Source: an uncultured SAR116 cluster alpha proteobacterium
GTDB taxonomy: Bacteria > Pseudomonadota > Alphaproteobacteria > Puniceispirillales > Puniceispirillaceae
Direction of reading: 5' to 3'
NCBI GenBank assembly: GCA_902596655.1
Contig: CACJUX010000008.1
Coordinates: forward strand, 1 to 64,000
Length of the DNA: 64,000 nt
Shown in pieces: positions 16,022-42,505 of this stretch; position 1 is the stretch's first letter; every line of letters starts with the position of its first letter. A program made the position numbers and the translations under genes. Below the pieces are notes generated by a model. It made no database searches, was not told the DNA's origin, and saw only the letters and a list, made by a program, of their open reading frames with translations.

Positions 16022-16111
16022 GGAGAGGTGGCAGAGCGGTTGAATGCACCGGTCTTGAAAACCGGCAAGGGTGCGAGCCCTTCGTGGGTTCGAATCCCAC
16101 CCTCTCCGCCA
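16022..16111 (+). tRNA. tRNA-Ser (anticodon TGA), CCA encoded
   Basis: GGAGAGG acceptor pairs with CCTCTCC; anticodon loop cTTGAaa; long variable arm; T-arm GGTTCGAATCC; 3' CCA. Confidence 0.95.
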
Positions 16112-16112
16112 T
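16101..16112 (+). repeat. Candidate attL core CCTCTCCGCCAT (tRNA-Ser 3' end)
   Basis: Identical 12-mer at 19877-19888 in the same orientation. Confidence 0.55.
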
Positions 16113-16261
16113 TATACATCACTAAAACATGTCATAGCGTGCCAAAACCATAAGCAGGTATTGGCTTTAAAGCTTTTTAAGCTAAGCATGCGACTTCACT
16201 GCAATGCACCTTATACCAGCTCACCTTGTGGGCTGGGTTGTGGGCCAGAGTAGAGGGCGCA

Positions 16262-17455
16262 ATGACATTGACAAATACCAAGATCACCCAGTTGCCAATA
16301 GGCAAAAAGACCTGCGATGGGCGGGGCTTGTACCTGCAACTAACAGGGCCAAAACGGGGCAAGTGGAGCTTTAGATACACCATTGGCGGGATAAGCCACG
16401 AGATGGGATTGGGTACATACCCCGAGATTAGCCTTGCAGAGGCCAGGACTTTGAGGGAGGCAGAAAAAATAAAACTGGCAAAGGGCAAGGACCCATTGCT
16501 TGAAAAGCAGAGAGCAGCACAGGTGAATGCTGAAAAAAGCAAGGTGAGGTTCTCCCACATTGCAGAGGACGTAATTGAATTGAAACGGCCAGGTTGGACA
16601 AGCCCAAAAAGCCGCCCTCAGTGGCGGAACACTCTCAAAACATATGTTTACCCGCATTTTGACCAAAAGCCTTTGTGTGAGCTTGATAGGGCTGATGTGT
16701 TGGCTGTTTTGCAACCCTATTGGAATTCCAAACACACAACTATGCGAAGATTGGTGGATAGAATGACCGCAGTTTTTGCATACGCAAAAGCAAGCGGACT
16801 CTACACAGGTGATAACCCCGCTGAATGGCGTAATAACCTAAGCCCACTATTGAGCCAAAAAAGAAAGCCAAAACACCACCCTGCCCTAGACTACAGAGAC
16901 TTACCCCAGTTTTTCGCCGAGCTCGCGAATATTGACACCATAGGCTCACTGGCCCTGCAATTTACAATACTTACAGCCGCTAGAACCTCTGAGGTAATAT
17001 TTGCCAGACCTGACGAAATTGATTTGAGACGGGGAATATGGCGCATACCCGCAAGCCGCATGAAGGCAAGAGAGATACACAGAGTACCATTAGCACCGCA
17101 GGCGGTGGCACTGTTGGAGGCATTATTATTGGGCCATAACCAACCCTTCATATTCCCTGGCCGCGACGCCGAAAAATCTCTCTCAAATGGCACTATGCAC
17201 CAGTTGTTAAGACGCCAATTCCCCAATCTAACAGCAACAGTGCACGGCTTTAGATCAACATTCCGTACTTGGGCAGCGGAGATTGGAGATTACCACCAGC
17301 ACTTAGCAGAAGTGGCTTTAGCACACAGGTTGGACCAGCGGGTGGAAGGGGCTTATAACCACTCGGATTATTTTACCAAGCGCAAAGCCATGATGATGGA
17401 TTATGCTAATTATGTGACCCAACACGTACCAGAAAGGACTATAGTTGCCCACTGA
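16262..17455 (+). CDS. Tyrosine recombinase/integrase, P4-type with DUF4102-like N-terminus
   Basis: DGRGLYLQLTGPKRGKWSFRYTIGG...LTAARTSEVIFARPDEID...TVHGFRSTFRTWAAE...VALAHRLDQRVEGAYNHSDYFTKRKAMM (catalytic R...HxxR...Y); directly 3' of tRNA-Ser. Confidence 0.92.
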   Translation: MTLTNTKITQLPIGKKTCDGRGLYLQLTGPKRGKWSFRYTIGGISHEMGLGTYPEISLAEARTLREAEKIKLAKGKDPLLEKQRAAQVNAEKSKVRFSHIAEDVIELKRPGWTSPKSRPQWRNTLKTYVYPHFDQKPLCELDRADVLAVLQPYWNSKHTTMRRLVDRMTAVFAYAKASGLYTGDNPAEWRNNLSPLLSQKRKPKHHPALDYRDLPQFFAELANIDTIGSLALQFTILTAARTSEVIFARPDEIDLRRGIWRIPASRMKAREIHRVPLAPQAVALLEALLLGHNQPFIFPGRDAEKSLSNGTMHQLLRRQFPNLTATVHGFRSTFRTWAAEIGDYHQHLAEVALAHRLDQRVEGAYNHSDYFTKRKAMMMDYANYVTQHVPERTIVAH

Positions 17456-17559
17456 AAGCCGTTACGATACACTAACCAAGTGAGCAGATGCTCCATAACC
17501 GATTAGGCAGACGCCTTACGCACCTGCCCCTTGTTAGGGGCTAACGTGGAGGTCTGCTT

Positions 17560-17832
17560 ATGACTTACTCCGATAACATCTCAAAAAAACAGGTTGCCCG
17601 CATGGTTGGCGTGAGCGAAAGCACCATTGTACGTTGGGTAAAGGCCAAGAAATTTCCCTTACCCTACACCATTGGCGGAAGAACTTTTTACTACAAACCA
17701 GAAGTAGAGACGTGGCTTGAGAAAAAAAGAGATGAAAGAGGTTTTCAAAAAATATTTTCTGATTTGAAACAGAATCTTAAAGAAGATTTCCTAATTCATA
17801 ACCTTAAATTTGAAAAAGACGAAAAACCTTAG
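17560..17832 (+). CDS. AlpA-like excisionase / helix-turn-helix DNA-binding protein
   Basis: ISKKQVARMVGVSESTIVRWVKAKKFPLPYTIGGRTFYYKPEVETWLEKKRDERG. Confidence 0.8.
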   Translation: MTYSDNISKKQVARMVGVSESTIVRWVKAKKFPLPYTIGGRTFYYKPEVETWLEKKRDERGFQKIFSDLKQNLKEDFLIHNLKFEKDEKP

Positions 17833-18149
17833 AGATACACACAAAAATGGGACAAAATGGGTATTAGGTGATAACGGTCGCGCAGTTAAAAATGTGTTTT
17901 TGGACCGTGCTAACCCAGCATGGTGGAGCATGTAGTATCTATTGAAAAAATGTGTCTCATAACGCGAGCCTATCTGGAGCTTTAATTGACGATGAGGCAT
18001 AGTGATTTAGCCCTGCTTACACCCACATAATGCAACTCTCGTCTCGCGTGTTCGGGCACTTCTCCTCAACCCCATGAAATAAGCACCGCCTTTGCAATGT
18101 GCTTTTTTTTATGGCAAAATTTTTATCAAATATTTGGAGGAGGCAAAGG

Positions 18150-19151
18150 ATGGAAGGCTCGATAGACCTTAGTTTTGAGTCCGTTGTGGGTATCAAGCAG
18201 TTACCTTCAACAGAAGGCAGAGGTTGGTTGGCATCGGATCTTTCTCAAGAAGATTGGACCGTCAAATTAAATCACACGGCGTTAGAAGAAATCGCGTCGA
18301 TGGTTAATCAACTAAAAAGGAATCCGTTACCCACTCTATTACTCCGTCCCGAGCAGTTTGAAATTCCTGAGCTATCTCGTGCGTATCAAAAAGCCAAAGA
18401 CATTTGTGATATCGGAACAGGCTTTGCTGTTATAGATCAGCTGCCGATTGATCAATATGAAATTGAGGATATGGTCGATGTCTATTGGACACTCGGTTAT
18501 TTAATGGGCCAGAACGTCGCTCAAAAATGGGATGGCACCATGATTTACGATGTTACAGATACTGGCAAAAAATATGGTTATGGTGTCAGAGGGTCAGCCA
18601 CGAACGTAGAATTAGGTTTTCACACAGATAATGCTTTTGGAATTTCTGTACCCGATTACGTTGGTTTGATGTGTAAATACCCAGCAAAAGAAGGCGGATT
18701 GAGCCGTTTTTGCAGTCTCCACACAGTTCATTGGCGTATGGAAAAAAAGTATCCGTCTGAGTTAATGAGGCTGTATAAGCCCGTGTATTTCGATAGGCAA
18801 GCTGAGCACGACATAGGTAAAGAAAAAACCTCCTTCGCTCCGATGTTTAGCTGGAAGGATGACAAACTTAGATGTCGCGCGAACAGTTCATTGGTGAGAA
18901 AAGGTTATCAGGTTGGCGGTATTGAAATGGATGCACAACTAAAAGATGCTTTAGACGCCATCGATGAAGTTAGTCAATCACCAGACCTATGGATTGAAGC
19001 ACCTTTATCTCGAGGAGAGGTTCAATATTTAAACAATCACGAACTAGGTCATTATCGATCTAATTTTGTTGATCACGATGACCCATCCAAGAAAAGACAT
19101 CTCTTTCGTCTCTGGCATCGCAGTTCAGGTGGCATCAATTACGACGGATAA
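18150..19151 (+). CDS. TauD/TfdA-family Fe(II)/2-oxoglutarate-dependent dioxygenase
   Basis: LGFHTDNAFGISVPDYVGLMC (HxD) and distal H...R in KRHLFRLWHRSSGG. Confidence 0.75.
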   Translation: MEGSIDLSFESVVGIKQLPSTEGRGWLASDLSQEDWTVKLNHTALEEIASMVNQLKRNPLPTLLLRPEQFEIPELSRAYQKAKDICDIGTGFAVIDQLPIDQYEIEDMVDVYWTLGYLMGQNVAQKWDGTMIYDVTDTGKKYGYGVRGSATNVELGFHTDNAFGISVPDYVGLMCKYPAKEGGLSRFCSLHTVHWRMEKKYPSELMRLYKPVYFDRQAEHDIGKEKTSFAPMFSWKDDKLRCRANSSLVRKGYQVGGIEMDAQLKDALDAIDEVSQSPDLWIEAPLSRGEVQYLNNHELGHYRSNFVDHDDPSKKRHLFRLWHRSSGGINYDG

Positions 19152-19369
19152 AGTCATCGGATGGGCATCTGCGGTTCTGCAAGCATGCGATTGGCAAAAA
19201 GAACAGAAAACCAAGTCGGTTTTGCTCATGCGCTAAAATAAACCATAACACTGCTGTGTCTAAAGTGACATTTGGCAAAAATTGGCTGAACTACAATTTC
19301 TTGATGCGTATATTTTATGCGTAACGTTTGGATCACTTAACTGTTTCATCCACCAAAAAGAGCAGAAAA

Positions 19370-19765
19370 ATGATAAATTTTCTTACGCTTGGAACAAACA
19401 ATTTGCAAAATGCCGAGGAATTTTATGACAGTGTTTTAGAACCTCTCAATTATGCGCAGATGGAGAAAGAAAAAACATATGTCGGTTACGCAAAACAAGA
19501 TGAAGGTTCGTCGCCTATATTATACATCGGGAATCCATTCGACAAAGAACCTGCAAGCTCAGGCAATGGCGCCATGGTTGCATTCTCCTGCCCATCAGAG
19601 GCTATCGTTAATAAGTGCCATCAACTCCTTATCATGAACGGTGGCGCAAATGAGGGTGATCCAGGACCGCGTCCGCATTACTCAAGTAATGGTTATTACG
19701 CCTATGGAAGAGATCTTGACGGCAATAAGTTACTTTTCTACTTCGACGCGGAAGACTCAAATTAG
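19370..19765 (+). CDS. VOC (glyoxalase/bleomycin resistance) family protein
   Basis: MINFLTLGTNNLQNAEEFYDSVLEPL...YYAYGRDLDGNKLLFYFDAED. Confidence 0.8.
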   Translation: MINFLTLGTNNLQNAEEFYDSVLEPLNYAQMEKEKTYVGYAKQDEGSSPILYIGNPFDKEPASSGNGAMVAFSCPSEAIVNKCHQLLIMNGGANEGDPGPRPHYSSNGYYAYGRDLDGNKLLFYFDAEDSN

Positions 19766-19876
19766 CGAGCCTTGGCAGAATTTTTAAACTAATTGTAGAC
19801 CCATTTGTGGGCTGGGATATTTTCTGTTAAAATTAAGTAATGAAAACATTGTCTTGCAGTGAAGTTAGGCGGAGGG

Positions 19877-19888
19877 CCTCTCCGCCAT
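19877..19888 (+). repeat. Candidate attR core CCTCTCCGCCAT
   Basis: Identical to the tRNA-Ser 3' end and followed by a T-rich tract. Also forms the 3' arm of a GGCGGAG/CTCCGCC hairpin. Confidence 0.5.
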
Positions 19889-20182
19889 ACTCCGTTTTTC
19901 TTTGGCTTTTGATTGTTAGCTATATTGGCTGTTAGAATCGTATTATATAATATGACATCTGGACATCAAATGAGAACTGACCAGTCTAATCCAAGACATC
20001 GTTAAAACTCCGTTCAAGTATCGGATCAGTTACGAACATCGCAAGCCAATCAAAACTAATCCATCCAAGGTCCAAGTTCCAAGACACAAGGTTCACGAAC
20101 CTCTGAGGGGTTAAAACAATAAGTTTTTATTAGCTGTAATTAGCATGACAAATGAAATGGTTATTTTGCCCCGGTGAAGAGT

Positions 20183-20290
20183 AGTTTTCACAATTTCCTA
20201 AAATTTTCGCCACAAAGTCGTCAAAGGGAGAGAATATATACGCATGTGATCCTCCCTAGACTCGGACCGGCTTTTGCCGGTCCTTTTTTT
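20183..20290 (+). ncRNA. Repeated noncoding element with intrinsic terminator, copy 1 (sRNA or leader attenuator)
   Basis: Near-gapless alignment with 24878-24985, including identical GCCACAAAGTCGT and TCCTCCCT and the terminator GGACCGGCTTTTGCCGGTCC-T7. Confidence 0.6.
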
Positions 20291-20367
20291 GCAAACGCGT
20301 AATAGCTTAGCTTGCTCGAAGCACTACGGTGGATTTAGACTATAATCCTTATTTGAGGTGAAAAAAG

Positions 20368-21261
20368 TTGATCAATCTTTCCAAGAACCATTTAGGCATG
20401 ATGATGGTCCTTGTATCTTCAGTTTGTTTCGCCTTTGTGCCAAACTCTGCAAAATTAGCAATGGAAGAAGGCTCTTCTTTGTTCTTTTTGATTTTATCAC
20501 GTTACGCTATTGGCGCATTTTTCTTGCTTCCCCTTTTATTTTTAAAGAAGACTTCGGTTCGTATTCCCAAGCATCTAATTTGGCGAGTTGTGGTCTCAGG
20601 GCTGTTAGCATTATTTCTGCTAGCAGCAACATATCACGCGGTGAATTTTCTGGATGTTGGGCTCGTCCTGCTAATTTTATATTCATTTCCTCTTGGTGTT
20701 GCTTTGGTCTTTCATCTGACAGGAAAACAGAGGATCAAGCAAAGCCAGTGGCACTGCATAGCGATGGTAATGATTGGTCTATTGATCATGATTTATGATG
20801 GTCAGGCTAAAATTAACCTGTATGGGCTGGCCGTGAGCTTTTTTGGACTTTTTTGTTTTGTCTTGTTCATAATCCAATCAAATGTATTGGCAATGACAAT
20901 AGGGTCTCCTTCCTTAAATTTTTTCATCAGCATTTTTGGATTGACCACCTTATCTCTCCTACTTTTATTTTTTCCCCATAGCACATCGATGACAATGCCA
21001 GTTTCGGCAAAAGGCATGATAGCAATATTCAGCAATGGATTTTTTTATATTTTAAGCTGGGTTCTATTCTTCGAAGGCGCACGACACATTGGCGCCGTCA
21101 GGGCTTCAATGATGGCTTGTGTTGAACCTCTTTTTGCGGCTCTGCTTGCGATGTTTTTTTTGTCTCAGATACTCTCTGTTATTGAGTGGATAGGCTTTTT
21201 TACTGTTCTGTCTTCCATATATCTGTTCGAGAAATTTAGCAGCGAGCATGAACAAAAATAA
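20368..21261 (+). CDS. EamA/DMT family transporter
   Basis: About 10 TM segments; two-fold EamA repeat architecture. Start appears to be TTG after GAGGTG. Confidence 0.8.
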   Translation: MINLSKNHLGMMMVLVSSVCFAFVPNSAKLAMEEGSSLFFLILSRYAIGAFFLLPLLFLKKTSVRIPKHLIWRVVVSGLLALFLLAATYHAVNFLDVGLVLLILYSFPLGVALVFHLTGKQRIKQSQWHCIAMVMIGLLIMIYDGQAKINLYGLAVSFFGLFCFVLFIIQSNVLAMTIGSPSLNFFISIFGLTTLSLLLLFFPHSTSMTMPVSAKGMIAIFSNGFFYILSWVLFFEGARHIGAVRASMMACVEPLFAALLAMFFLSQILSVIEWIGFFTVLSSIYLFEKFSSEHEQK

Positions 21262-21664
21262 TAATTTTCGTTTTGCTTCGTATTTGGTTACGGCAAATAC
21301 GAATCTCCTAATGACAGTCTTTTTTTGCAGACTGTAAATCCCTTACACTATTTTTTTCATCACCTAGGCAAATCAGTGTCTTAGTCTCTAGAGATTAGAT
21401 ACATATAGATACCAACAAACAGTGATTGTGATCCCCAAAATAATCCTCTAATCGATCCAAAATGCGCTTGTTAAAGCATTGATTAGAAATGGTTTTAAAC
21501 GATATCTAGCAGGCACAAAATAAAGGCCAATTTCAGCAAGAAAAAGATTTAAAAATGACGATTCCTCAGAAACCCTGAATTTATATCAACTGGCAGCACT
21601 CCCGGGTCCTGCGGCAGCAATCTATCTTGAAGCTGAATCAACAGCCTGCTACCTTTTTAATATT

Positions 21665-22717
21665 ATGTCGAATTACCGCGATTATTCTCTCCTCGGCCGT
21701 GATGGCGTGGCAGCATTGGAAAATGGGCTCGCCAGATCAAACTGGTACCAAACTGAGATACCACGTAAATCGCTCGCCGCTTTGATGAAGCCTACTAACG
21801 GCCCAGCTATCCGTGATACTTTAATCCTTATTGTTGCTATGGTCGGATTAGCCACCATAGCGGGGATTCTTTACGATTCGTTGCTTTCGCTGCCCTTTTT
21901 TCTTGCGTATGGAATTCTATACGGGTCGGCAATGGACTCTCGCTGGCATGAGTGCGGTCACAAAACTGCCTTCAAAACACGCTGGATGAACGACGTCGTT
22001 TATCAGGTTGCCTGTTTCTGCATGATTCGGAACCCACACACTTGGCGATGGAGCCACGCGCGACATCACACTGACACCATAATTGTTGGCCGTGATCCCG
22101 AGATCCAGCTAATGCGGCCACCCCAATTAGCAAAACTGATAGCAAATTTCTTAGGGCTTCTTGACGTTCCAACGGGACTGCGGTTGATGGTGCTCAACGC
22201 CTTTGGAAAACTTGACCCTCAGGAAAAAACTTACATTCCTCAAAGCGAACAACACAAGGTAGTACGTGTGGCACGGCTCTGGATATTAATCTATGGAGCC
22301 ACAATCAGCGTGGCTGTTGCGACGCAGAGCTGGTTACCATTGCTGCTAGTCGGCACGCCTCGGCTCTATGGCGCTTGGCATCATGTAATGACAGGAATGC
22401 TGCAGCACGGCGGCCTTGCTGACAATGTTACCGATCACCGACTTAACACACGAACAGTGCTGATGAATCCGATTTCAAGGTTCATTTACTGGAACATGAA
22501 CTATCATATAGAACACCACATGTATCCGAAAGTGCCCTACCACGCGTTGCCAGCACTCCATCAATTGGTGCGGCACGATCTGCCATCGCCATCACCTTCA
22601 ATCGCGGCCGCATTTACTGAGATGTGGCCAGTTCTGGTTCGACAGCTTCACAACGAGAATTATTTTTTGAAGCGGAGACTGCCAGAAAGTGCGACACCTT
22701 ATCGAGAGTTGTCATGA
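21665..22717 (+). CDS. Membrane fatty acid desaturase-superfamily protein, MocD-like
   Basis: Three His boxes HECGH, HARHH and HIEHH; N-terminus DYSLLGRDGVAALENGLARSNWYQTEIPRKSL resembles MocD-type oxygenases. Confidence 0.8.
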   Translation: MSNYRDYSLLGRDGVAALENGLARSNWYQTEIPRKSLAALMKPTNGPAIRDTLILIVAMVGLATIAGILYDSLLSLPFFLAYGILYGSAMDSRWHECGHKTAFKTRWMNDVVYQVACFCMIRNPHTWRWSHARHHTDTIIVGRDPEIQLMRPPQLAKLIANFLGLLDVPTGLRLMVLNAFGKLDPQEKTYIPQSEQHKVVRVARLWILIYGATISVAVATQSWLPLLLVGTPRLYGAWHHVMTGMLQHGGLADNVTDHRLNTRTVLMNPISRFIYWNMNYHIEHHMYPKVPYHALPALHQLVRHDLPSPSPSIAAAFTEMWPVLVRQLHNENYFLKRRLPESATPYRELS

Positions 22718-22871
22718 GTGGTTTGAAGGGACAGCCCGCTACCGCCAAACATTGCAAAAAACACCAATTAAATAAAATAATTCACATCAGAAAACTTGCA
22801 AATAACTTTTGAAAATAGCAACCAAGTGAACTTACCACGTCTCAGAACAAACCTTGTCTGAAGGAGATGAC

Positions 22872-23678
22872 ATGTTGGGTTCTACTGTTTACACTTTACT
22901 ATTGGCGTTGTTTTGTAATTTGATAGTAAATAACGCCTGGTCGCGTGAAATTGAGGTGCAGCTGACTTACCAAGTGCAATGGGGTGACCTTGATATAGCG
23001 AAAGCTGAAGCTGAATGGGTGTTTAAAGAAGGTACATATACGATGAGTGGTGCCTCACAAACTTTGGGTATTGTGAAAAAAATTAGAGATTTTAGAGGCG
23101 CTTCCAAACTATCGGGTAATATAATCGAGGATGCTTTTCAGCCTGTTAAACTTCAAATAACCAGCGTTTCTGGTGAACAAAAAAAACAAGCTGAAACAAC
23201 TTGGAACCCAATAAATGGCGCGATAAAGACAAAACGACACCCTAAGATTGACAAGGAAAAAGTATTTCCATTACGCCAGAAATTAATAACAAGTTCGATT
23301 GATCCTTTTAGCGCGATGTTGAACACGCTGAGAACAATACAAAAAATTGGTAGATGCGAAGGTACTTATCGCATCTACGATGGTCTCAGAACTGCGATTT
23401 TGAGTTTTCATGATATGGGAGTGCAACATTTAATCAAGGATAGGCCTTCTGCTTTTGGAGGCAGCACAATAAAATGTGGAGTTGTAAGCAAGCCCACTGG
23501 GGGGCATCAGATAAAAAACCGGTGGAGGAAAAAAAATAAAGAAAAAGATAACGTTGTTGGGTTCATTTCAGAGTTAGAGTCGGGGTTGTTCATTCCTGTC
23601 AGAATTGAGGTGGCTACACCGATTGGTAAAATCATCTCTAGACTTCACATGCCCAGCTTAATCGTCACTGAACGTTGA
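22872..23678 (+). CDS. DUF3108-like periplasmic protein
   Basis: Signal peptide, then EVQLTYQVQWGDLDIAKAEAEWVFKEGTYTMSG...ITSVSGEQKKQAETTWN; DUF3108-type pattern. Confidence 0.6.
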   Translation: MLGSTVYTLLLALFCNLIVNNAWSREIEVQLTYQVQWGDLDIAKAEAEWVFKEGTYTMSGASQTLGIVKKIRDFRGASKLSGNIIEDAFQPVKLQITSVSGEQKKQAETTWNPINGAIKTKRHPKIDKEKVFPLRQKLITSSIDPFSAMLNTLRTIQKIGRCEGTYRIYDGLRTAILSFHDMGVQHLIKDRPSAFGGSTIKCGVVSKPTGGHQIKNRWRKKNKEKDNVVGFISELESGLFIPVRIEVATPIGKIISRLHMPSLIVTER

Positions 23679-23714
23679 GAGGTAATCGATCCAATTCATA
23701 TCGCTAGACATTAC

Positions 23715-24617
23715 TTATTTGGGTGCTTCGGAGGGTTTCATAACGAATAGGCCTGCGCCGACAACTAAAAAGCTACCTATAAGGGTTGTTATAGCAGGTG
23801 TCTCATCAAATAAAAAAGCGCCCCAAAGCAACGCAAAAACAAGCCCAAAATAATTTAATGGTGCCAAATCTGATGCACCGTTCAATTGAAATGCTCTTAT
23901 AAGTAAAAAATGCCCAAGGCTTGCTAATGTTATCATCACAGCGATTGCTAAAATTTCAGCTACGGTCGTTGGATTTACCCATACAAAAGGTATAACAAAA
24001 CAAGTCGCAAGTGCTCCGAAAGCCGTCGTATAAAAGAGTGTTGTCCGAGCGTCATCACCCTTTCCAAGTGACCTGGTAAGCACACTGTAAATTGCATAAA
24101 ATGTCGCTGCGAGTATCGGTAAAAGCGCAAATGCTGAAAAATGAAATTGTTGCGGCTGCACTATAATGATTGCTCCAGTAAAGCCTAGCAGTATACCAAA
24201 GCATTTTTTTATACCAAGACTCTCTCCAAGAAACAGCATTGCCAGCAAGGAAATAATTAGCGGTGCCACTTGGAAGGTTGCAGCAGCTTGACCTTGGTCA
24301 ATAAATTTTAGCGCAAAAAAGAAACAAACAGTTGTTCCAAATAATGTGCCTGACCTTAAGATTTGAATGCCTAAATTATCTGTTTCAGCTGAAGCCCTCA
24401 GATTTGATGACAGTATGCACAGCACTACAAGAAATTGACCGAGATAGCGAAACCAAATTACTTGCATAACTGGCATTGTTTGGGACAAATATTTCGCCAT
24501 TGCATCCATACCAGGTAAACAGCACATCGCTGTAACCATCAGAATAAAACTGAGTTGCCTACTCGTTGAATGTTCCATTAACTCCAGCTCACTCAGTACA
24601 AGTTGCAAATAGGTCAT
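23715..24617 (-). CDS. EamA/DMT family transporter
   Basis: MCCLPGMDAMAKYLSQTMPVMQVIWFRYLGQFL...GASDLAPLNYFGLVFALLWGAFLFDE: typical EamA. Confidence 0.88.
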   Translation of the reverse strand: MTYLQLVLSELELMEHSTSRQLSFILMVTAMCCLPGMDAMAKYLSQTMPVMQVIWFRYLGQFLVVLCILSSNLRASAETDNLGIQILRSGTLFGTTVCFFFALKFIDQGQAAATFQVAPLIISLLAMLFLGESLGIKKCFGILLGFTGAIIIVQPQQFHFSAFALLPILAATFYAIYSVLTRSLGKGDDARTTLFYTTAFGALATCFVIPFVWVNPTTVAEILAIAVMITLASLGHFLLIRAFQLNGASDLAPLNYFGLVFALLWGAFLFDETPAITTLIGSFLVVGAGLFVMKPSEAPK

Positions 24618-24877
24618 TGATAGTCAGATTAGCATTTGATTTTTTGGACCACTGAATTGAATTTTCACCGGACGCCTTCACCAAATCACCAAGGTCCGAG
24701 GCCAAAGAGCAAGCACTCATACCTAATAATCCTGCATCCTCCAAGCGAAAGACCAGCTAAATCAGCGACGAGCATCAATAAACTGGGCTCAAAATCGGCT
24801 ATCAGTGCCTGACCGTCCGTGGACCACTGACTTTTGTTTTTGAACTATGTGTTTATACCCCTACTCTGGTTTCAGAC

Positions 24878-24985
24878 AATTTTCACACTGCCATAACATT
24901 TTAGCCACAAAGTCGTTATACTGAGTGAACATTTTCTTCATATTTCCTCCCTTAAACTTGGACCGGCTTATGCTGGTCCTTTTTT
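24878..24985 (+). ncRNA. Repeated noncoding element with intrinsic terminator, copy 2 (sRNA or leader attenuator)
   Basis: About 75% identity by hand count to 20183-20290; terminator GGACCGGCTTATGCTGGTCC followed by a T-run. Confidence 0.6.
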
Positions 24986-25035
24986 ATGAAAAATTGAATC
25001 TTGAGTTTACAGATGATTGCCTTAACTCATGGTCA

Positions 25036-25713
25036 ATGAGTAAAGTCCCGAATATGAGTTTAAGAAAGAATATCCCATCGACAGCCAGTGTTGCAATTCC
25101 GGGCCAAGATGGCCGCCTTTTGGCGACGGCGGCAGATAGGAACGCTAATCCCATCGTAGACCTTGTTGTGGAGATTGCACCTGAAACTGGTCAGGCGTTG
25201 GAAATAGCAAGCGGAACAGGCCAACACATCGTGAAGCTAGCTGCTGCAAAACCCAAATTAAACTGGCAACCATCCGATATTGATCCAACACGTATTGCAA
25301 GCATCAAAACTTGGAGCTCGGACAAAACTCTAGCTAATTTGAATACACCAATTTTTTTAGATGCAACTCAAGTTGGTTGGTCTTCAGAACATACTAATCA
25401 AAACTTTGTACTTTTAGTAAACCTCATCCACTTGATAAGTGTATCTGAGACGAAAACAATTATCGGCGAAATCTCCCTTGCTCTGGCGTCAGGTGGCCGC
25501 TCCATAATTTATGGGCCTTTCAAAAGGAATGGAAAACTAACAACTCCTGGCGACAAGTCTTTTCATCAAAGTTTAAAAGCAACTGACCCTGAAATTGGAT
25601 ACAAAAATGACACATGGATGATTGAGCAAGTTAAGAGAGAGGGATTAGCTTTGTTGAGAATTGAAAAAATGCCCGCAAATAATCTCGCATTCATTGTTGA
25701 AAAACAAAGATGA
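25036..25713 (+). CDS. DUF938 family class I SAM-dependent methyltransferase-like protein
   Basis: ATAADRNANPIVDLVVEIAPETGQALEIASGTGQHIVKLAAAKPKLNWQPSDID...; start placed downstream of the terminator at 24960-24985. Confidence 0.8.
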   Translation: MSKVPNMSLRKNIPSTASVAIPGQDGRLLATAADRNANPIVDLVVEIAPETGQALEIASGTGQHIVKLAAAKPKLNWQPSDIDPTRIASIKTWSSDKTLANLNTPIFLDATQVGWSSEHTNQNFVLLVNLIHLISVSETKTIIGEISLALASGGRSIIYGPFKRNGKLTTPGDKSFHQSLKATDPEIGYKNDTWMIEQVKREGLALLRIEKMPANNLAFIVEKQR

Positions 25714-42371: not shown

Positions 42372-42461
42372 GAGTTTCTCAGAATTTAATCCGACATAAG
42401 AAATCATAAATAACCAAAATTAGAAAAACAAATTCGACCACTTAATTAAACCGCAGTGGCT

Positions 42462-42487
42462 AAAAAAGGGCCGACTTACGCCGGCCC
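42462..42487 (-). terminator. Intrinsic terminator/attenuator after the SBP gene
   Basis: Minus strand GGGCCG-GCGTAAGT-CGGCCC-TTTTTT. Confidence 0.7.
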
Positions 42488-42505
42488 AAATTCTTATTTA
42501 TTGGA

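Follow-up and report, generated by a model that had tools for sequence, protein, structure and literature searches.

The alpha-r8 small RNAs (sRNAs), which form Rfam family RF00519 (suhB, MmgR or alpha-r8), are known to regulate carbon storage and the response to starvation. Their published features are a 10-mer core, UUUCCUCCCU, a weak hairpin that precedes it and a rho-independent terminator (PMC12559287). The best-described relatives of the elements reported here are MmgR of Sinorhizobium meliloti, a 77-nt RNA linked to nitrogen and carbon status, and SisA-D of Caulobacter crescentus (PMC12559287, PMC8401924). Transcription of mmgR is under NtrC/AniA control (PMC8401924), and SisA-D have no common promoter motif (PMC12559287). 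A second group of related systems comprises sRNAs placed within the flagellar cascade. In Campylobacter jejuni, CJnc170 (FlmR) is FliA dependent and has the paralogue CJnc10, while CJnc230 (FlmE) is RpoN dependent (PMC11187230, PMC4626219); in a reporter test, CjNC1 and CjNC4 were active in the absence of Hfq (PMC4626219). In Escherichia coli, UhpU, MotR, FliX and FlgO are Hfq-bound RNAs under sigma28 control (PMC10578931).

The two duplicated elements described here resemble the alpha-r8 sRNAs in predicted size, in their weak 5′ hairpin and rho-independent terminator, in an unpaired core that is exact in copy 2 and agrees at 8 of 10 positions in copy 1, and in having several dispersed siblings (PMC12559287, PMC8401924). 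They differ from them in scoring below the Rfam cutoff and, unlike SisA-D, in sharing a promoter motif, predicted to be of the flagellar sigma28 type. Like the Campylobacter RNAs, they would be short sRNAs with paralogues whose sigma28 or sigma54 promoters assign them to the flagellar cascade (PMC11187230, PMC4626219); the two groups are not known to be kin in sequence. Whereas the E. coli RNAs derive from untranslated regions of mRNAs, the elements would be stand-alone genes of an old alphaproteobacterial family. We estimate at roughly 80% the probability that they encode sigma28-transcribed, Hfq-dependent, trans-acting anti-Shine-Dalgarno sRNAs, which constitute a divergent alpha-r8 branch tied to late flagellar expression. 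This reading is drawn from sequence, namely, from the copies, their core and terminators, a promoter that resembles those of flagellin genes, the occurrence of genes for FliA and Hfq and a gene neighbourhood that is not conserved. In our judgement, the RNA is of a familiar type and what is new is its regulatory setting, and the literature searched yielded no report of a flagellar-sigma-driven alpha-r8 branch and no prior sRNA work on this group of bacteria.

Two duplicated elements in the window

The window, i.e., the whole 64-kb stretch of DNA analysed, carries the two elements at positions 20183-20290 (copy 1) and 24878-24985 (copy 2). The first-pass annotation had described them as near-gapless duplicates of about 75% identity, and a BLAST comparison within the window agreed, with 77.6% identity over 107 columns, 3 gap positions and E = 1.3e-16. 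No third full-length copy was found within the 64 kb using BLAST or a covariance model of the element (R1, see below). Of two segments initially given as identical, GCCACAAAGTCGT is the same in both copies (20209-20221 and 24904-24916), but TCCTCCCT, although present in both (20250-20257 and 24945-24952), occupies different columns of the gapped alignment. Both elements follow the same layout (Table 1), in which a 5′ part of the form TTTTCACA...TAAM...GCCACAAAGTCGT is followed by a C/U-rich core, an 8-bp terminator hairpin and a T run. The proposal of homologous paired terminators was borne out, as both 8-bp stems fold and the two copies fold beyond shuffled sequences (z = -3.5 and -4.0). The elements are also noncoding, as first proposed, with no reading frame common to both copies; a GTG frame overlaps copy 2, but it extends the DUF938 frame upstream and nothing at copy 1 corresponds to it. 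As initially noted, both copies lie on the + strand 50-80 nt before a gene, and these genes were confirmed as EamA (PF00892) and DUF938 (PF06080), respectively. Elsewhere in the window, a terminator resembling those of both copies occurs on the minus strand at 42461-42492 without the rest of the element.

Table 1. Predicted features of the two elements, in window coordinates
Feature	Position	Strand	Basis or remark
Copy 1 upstream box TTTTCACA	20185..20192	+	In both window copies and in several but not all genus siblings
Copy 1 predicted promoter, sigma28-type: CTAAA (20198-20202), N14, GTCGTC (20217-20222)	20198..20222	+	Motif precedes flagellins and siblings
Copy 1 predicted sRNA, about 62 nt	20229..20290	+	5′ end placed from the promoter
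Copy 1 core GATCCTCCCT	20248..20257	+	8/10 match to the alpha-r8 core UUUCCUCCCU
Copy 1 intrinsic terminator: 8-bp stem (20264-20271/20276-20283), TTTT loop, T7	20264..20290	+	Sequence and folding
Copy 2 box TTTTCACA	24880..24887	+	Alignment of the two copies
Copy 2 predicted promoter, sigma28-type: TAAC (24894-24897), N14, GTCGTT (24912-24917)	24894..24917	+	Motif match
Copy 2 predicted sRNA, about 62-64 nt	24922..24985	+	5′ end placed in the same manner
Copy 2 core TTTCCTCCCT	24943..24952	+	10/10 match to the alpha-r8 core
Copy 2 intrinsic terminator: 8-bp stem with a G-U wobble (24960-24967/24972-24979), TTAT loop, T6	24960..24985	+	Sequence and folding

The RNA part and the alpha-r8 family

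At the Rfam gathering threshold, a tRNA is the sole report in the window. Relaxing the threshold reveals matches that span the whole of RF00519 in both copies, with 33.1 bits in copy 2 (E 4e-4, 24926-24994) and 24.6 bits in copy 1 (E 0.06, 20233-20298), both below the gathering score of 41 bits. Matches in the genome to which the window belongs, which is 73% complete, score 40.1, 38.2, 35.3, 33.1, 26.1 and 24.6 bits, the best sibling thus lying at 40.1 against the cutoff of 41. Five of these six carry the upstream element (contigs C8 twice, C15, C30 and C58), and the sixth, on C2, has an ordinary TTGACT...CATATC promoter. Among 61 genomes of relatives, 44 contain an RF00519 match at E<=0.01 and 23 one above the gathering cutoff. 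Model R1 was built from 12 genus copies alone, including both window copies (which score 78 and 79.5 bits for copies 1 and 2, respectively, as members of the training set), and finds matches in 26 of the 61 family genomes at E<=0.001. It also recovers canonical sigma70-type copies in G011, G019, G033, G067, G075 and G016 (E 4e-5 to 9e-4). Since R1 finds the canonical copies and RF00519 finds the new ones, the homology link holds in both directions.

Most genus siblings have the core TTTTCTCCCT, to be compared with the two window cores in Table 1, and a weak 5′ hairpin and a 3′ rho-independent terminator were found by folding in both window copies, the hairpin of copy 2 being present in the minimum-energy structure and absent from the centroid. 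Terminator cells are 99% paired, versus 25-63% for slid partners, which favours an sRNA over a leader; covariation in the terminator is thin, with 1 compensatory pair and 92 of 500 shuffles equally good. It is well supported by sequence that both elements represent a divergent branch related to alpha-r8/MmgR, which we describe as such, and not as a formal member of RF00519, because the window copies score below its gathering threshold. The first-pass annotation had offered, as one of two readings, a trans-acting sRNA of a new family, with a CCUCCC anti-Shine-Dalgarno core and a promoter in the 5′ half. The predicted sRNA genes, core and promoter stand, whereas the new family was rejected, as RF00519 and its relatives account for the RNA part. 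A further divergent sibling, L222 (G000:C73:1888), has the promoter motif and a degenerate core, TTTCCACCTT.

Siblings, neighbouring genes and conservation

The element extends beyond the pair initially noticed. Close siblings occupy three further sites in the genome of the window, which holds at least five close copies as well as divergent ones. An absence of further copies and of conservation would have counted against the original claim; siblings retaining promoter, core and terminator were found instead. Siblings are followed by genes that have nothing in common and that in many cases run the other way (L005, L006, L050, L052, L053 and L054 precede unrelated or opposite-strand genes), and comparison of sibling neighbourhoods revealed no conserved tie to the downstream gene. 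These differences in neighbouring genes argue against the second reading offered at first, in which each element acts in cis as a 5′ leader on the gene that follows it, EamA or DUF938, its terminator serving as an attenuator. Such leaders would be expected to stand where the two copies do, shortly upstream of a same-strand gene, and the copy-1/EamA arrangement is retained in the related genome G001, while L004 and L056 also precede a same-strand frame. However, no alternative antiterminator helix was seen and the core is that of an sRNA family known to act in trans, and the leader reading, which we rejected on the gene context of the siblings, is very improbable.

Over 17988-25146, the window shares 92% identity with G001. 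In that genome, boxes, core and terminator all persist in the copy-1 orthologue, while the orthologue of copy 2 has lost the core and one spacer base, suggesting that copy 2 is not under strong constraint and that siblings are born and lost. Conservation relative to G001 is 88-91% for the copies versus 93-95% for the neighbouring genes, so that neither copy exceeds the genes, although copy 1 surpasses the intergenic stretch on its upstream side (82%). Loss of the core in the copy-2 orthologue and in L222 would also be compatible with selfish or mobile repeat units devoid of a cellular role, or with decaying copies of one functional gene, and both L056, L004 and L053 (near integrase or replication-type genes, by eye) and a tRNA-integrase segment at window positions 16022-17455 could be taken in the same sense. 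Yet promoter, core and terminator are retained together in most copies across species, and the boundaries of the whole element fit a gene unit, which makes this explanation distinctly improbable. At 16022-17987, the window contains a tRNA followed by a phage-type integrase, where G001 instead has about 4.3 kb with a sigma54-class sibling.

The promoter-like half and a predicted link to the flagellar cascade

Siblings share a promoter-like element, (C)TAAM-N14-GTCGTY, in their 5′ half. Sorting 76 RF00519 matches by their upstream sequence yielded several classes: a canonical sigma70 class (TTGAC...CATATA), present in most genomes, a sigma54 class (e.g., TTGGCACGACCCTTGC in G001 and G003) and a TAAM-N14-GTCGTY-type class with 16 of the 76 matches (shuffle mean 0.1, largest 2), while many second copies fall in none. 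The motif also stands upstream of 14 of 41 R1 matches outside the training set (shuffle mean 0.02), most of them already met via the promoter pattern or RF00519, with G077:C4:66267, G077:C3 and G076 being fully independent. Copies within the genus are recent duplicates, and their common spacer stems partly from shared descent. In genus g8, the same boxes occur at the same spacing around an unrelated spacer, which argues that the boxes, and not the whole block, are under selection. Because the bare promoter pattern is common by chance (1.74 matches expected in 64 kb; rarer genome-wide than its reversed control), its weight lies in position and context.

The strict form TAA[ACT]-N14-G[TC]CGT[TAC] was found upstream of 26 of 46 flagellin-type genes of the family (shuffle mean 0.09, largest 2) and once on the antisense strand of the same 46 upstream regions, a set that contains flagellin paralogues and whose members are thus not independent. 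A looser pattern occurs in 34 of the 46, and among the 12 that lack it, 8 carry a site of the sigma54 type. In the genome of the window, the motif precedes a flagellin gene by 94 nt, and in G037 by 71 nt. In G004, which at 96% is the most complete genome of the genus, there are three sigma70-type factors in all, resembling RpoD, RpoH and FliA. The FliA-like factor in the genome of the window scores 214.7 bits against a FliA/WhiG cutoff of 189.6, its gene follows flhF/flhG-like genes, and an hfq gene is present. Given the motif before flagellins and RpoD, RpoH and FliA as the sole sigma70-type factors, FliA (sigma28) is the likely user of the motif. The assignment of the predicted promoter of the window copies to the FliA (sigma28) type is well supported by these sequence matches, and the 5′ half, initially read as a conserved promoter of no particular type, is corrected accordingly to one of flagellar type. 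Against it stands that both GTCGTY and a spacer of 14 nt depart from the sigma28 consensus of E. coli. If correct, the motif supplies a usable sigma28 promoter pattern for this bacterial family.

The spacer ATTTTnGCCACAAAGT, conserved within the genus, and the TTTTCACA box found further upstream in several copies could instead indicate that these alpha-r8-type sRNA genes are served by an unlisted sigma factor, or by sigma70 together with an activator bound at GCCACAAAGTCGT. We regard this as unlikely, since spacer conservation is gone in other genera while TAAM and GTCGT keep the same spacing, the same two boxes precede flagellin genes and the 96% complete G004 yielded no ECF factor. An ECF sigma promoter had been considered first, as TAAC-N16-CGTT resembles ECF sites, and was dropped on the last two grounds. 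A strict promoter-plus-core pattern gave 16 matches in 11 of the 61 family genomes (reversed control, 5). Nine of these 11 genomes have a Flagellin_N-family match (flagellin or FlgL) and the other two are about 70% complete, while the pattern is present in 0 of 8 genomes of >=90% completeness that have no Flagellin_N match; in this small sample, the co-occurrence is consistent with the flagellar link and not significant. Scanning named genomes for a partial promoter plus core returned one match, in a Gastranaerophilales contig, which was judged to be due to chance, as no -35 box or terminator was seen there by eye.

With FliA as the probable sigma factor, each element would be a complete MmgR/SisA-like sRNA gene with its own promoter and terminator. 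FliA would read the common 5′ half, and the RNAs would appear with flagellin, late in flagellar assembly, a timing modelled on the sigma28-controlled FlmR (PMC11187230) and UhpU, MotR, FliX and FlgO (PMC10578931). The predicted RNA of about 62 nt would expose the C/U-rich core (GAUCCUCCCU in copy 1, UUUCCUCCCU in copy 2), and this core, with the aid of Hfq, would base-pair with purine-rich ribosome-binding sites on mRNAs from other loci and lower their translation, by analogy with SisA (PMC12559287). The sequence data suggest that, while its flagellum is being built, the bacterium produces an RNA that blocks ribosome-binding sites from several gene copies. If so, a fliA mutant would lose these RNAs, and the alpha-r8 family, with whatever part in motility or metabolism this branch may play, would be linked to motility. 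A target screen by duplex energy, run on the window and on the flagellar contig, showed nothing beyond the level of shuffled seeds; the best predicted sites include hook/rod-type and bactofilin-like genes (by eye), with mean energies no better than those of shuffled seeds. More tentatively, an ancestral anti-Shine-Dalgarno sRNA may have been copied into housekeeping, sigma54 and sigma28 classes, so that the same core would be deployed stepwise along the flagellar cascade as a post-transcriptional checkpoint on ribosome-binding sites, a possibility that we consider less likely than not.

Several other elements were observed alongside these promoter classes. Alpha-r8-type siblings stand behind sigma54-type sites (TGGCAnnnnnnYTGC) in several genera (L051:7856-7922, L055, L061, L065, L083 and L085), and other alpha-r8-type copies have a different upstream sequence, GAATC-N16-CGTA (L066, L069 and L079; GACTC-N16-CGTC in L067). 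Two noncoding elements of a different kind, L216 (G000:C16:3387) and L218 (G000:C30:9045), are 88% identical and lie behind a sigma28-type motif, GTCGTTTnATCGAGCGAT...; they are absent from the other family genomes among the 61 searched. The sigma28-type motif is also kept before a cyclic-nucleotide-binding-like gene (by eye) in three genus genomes and one of another genus (L095, L105, L106 and L118).
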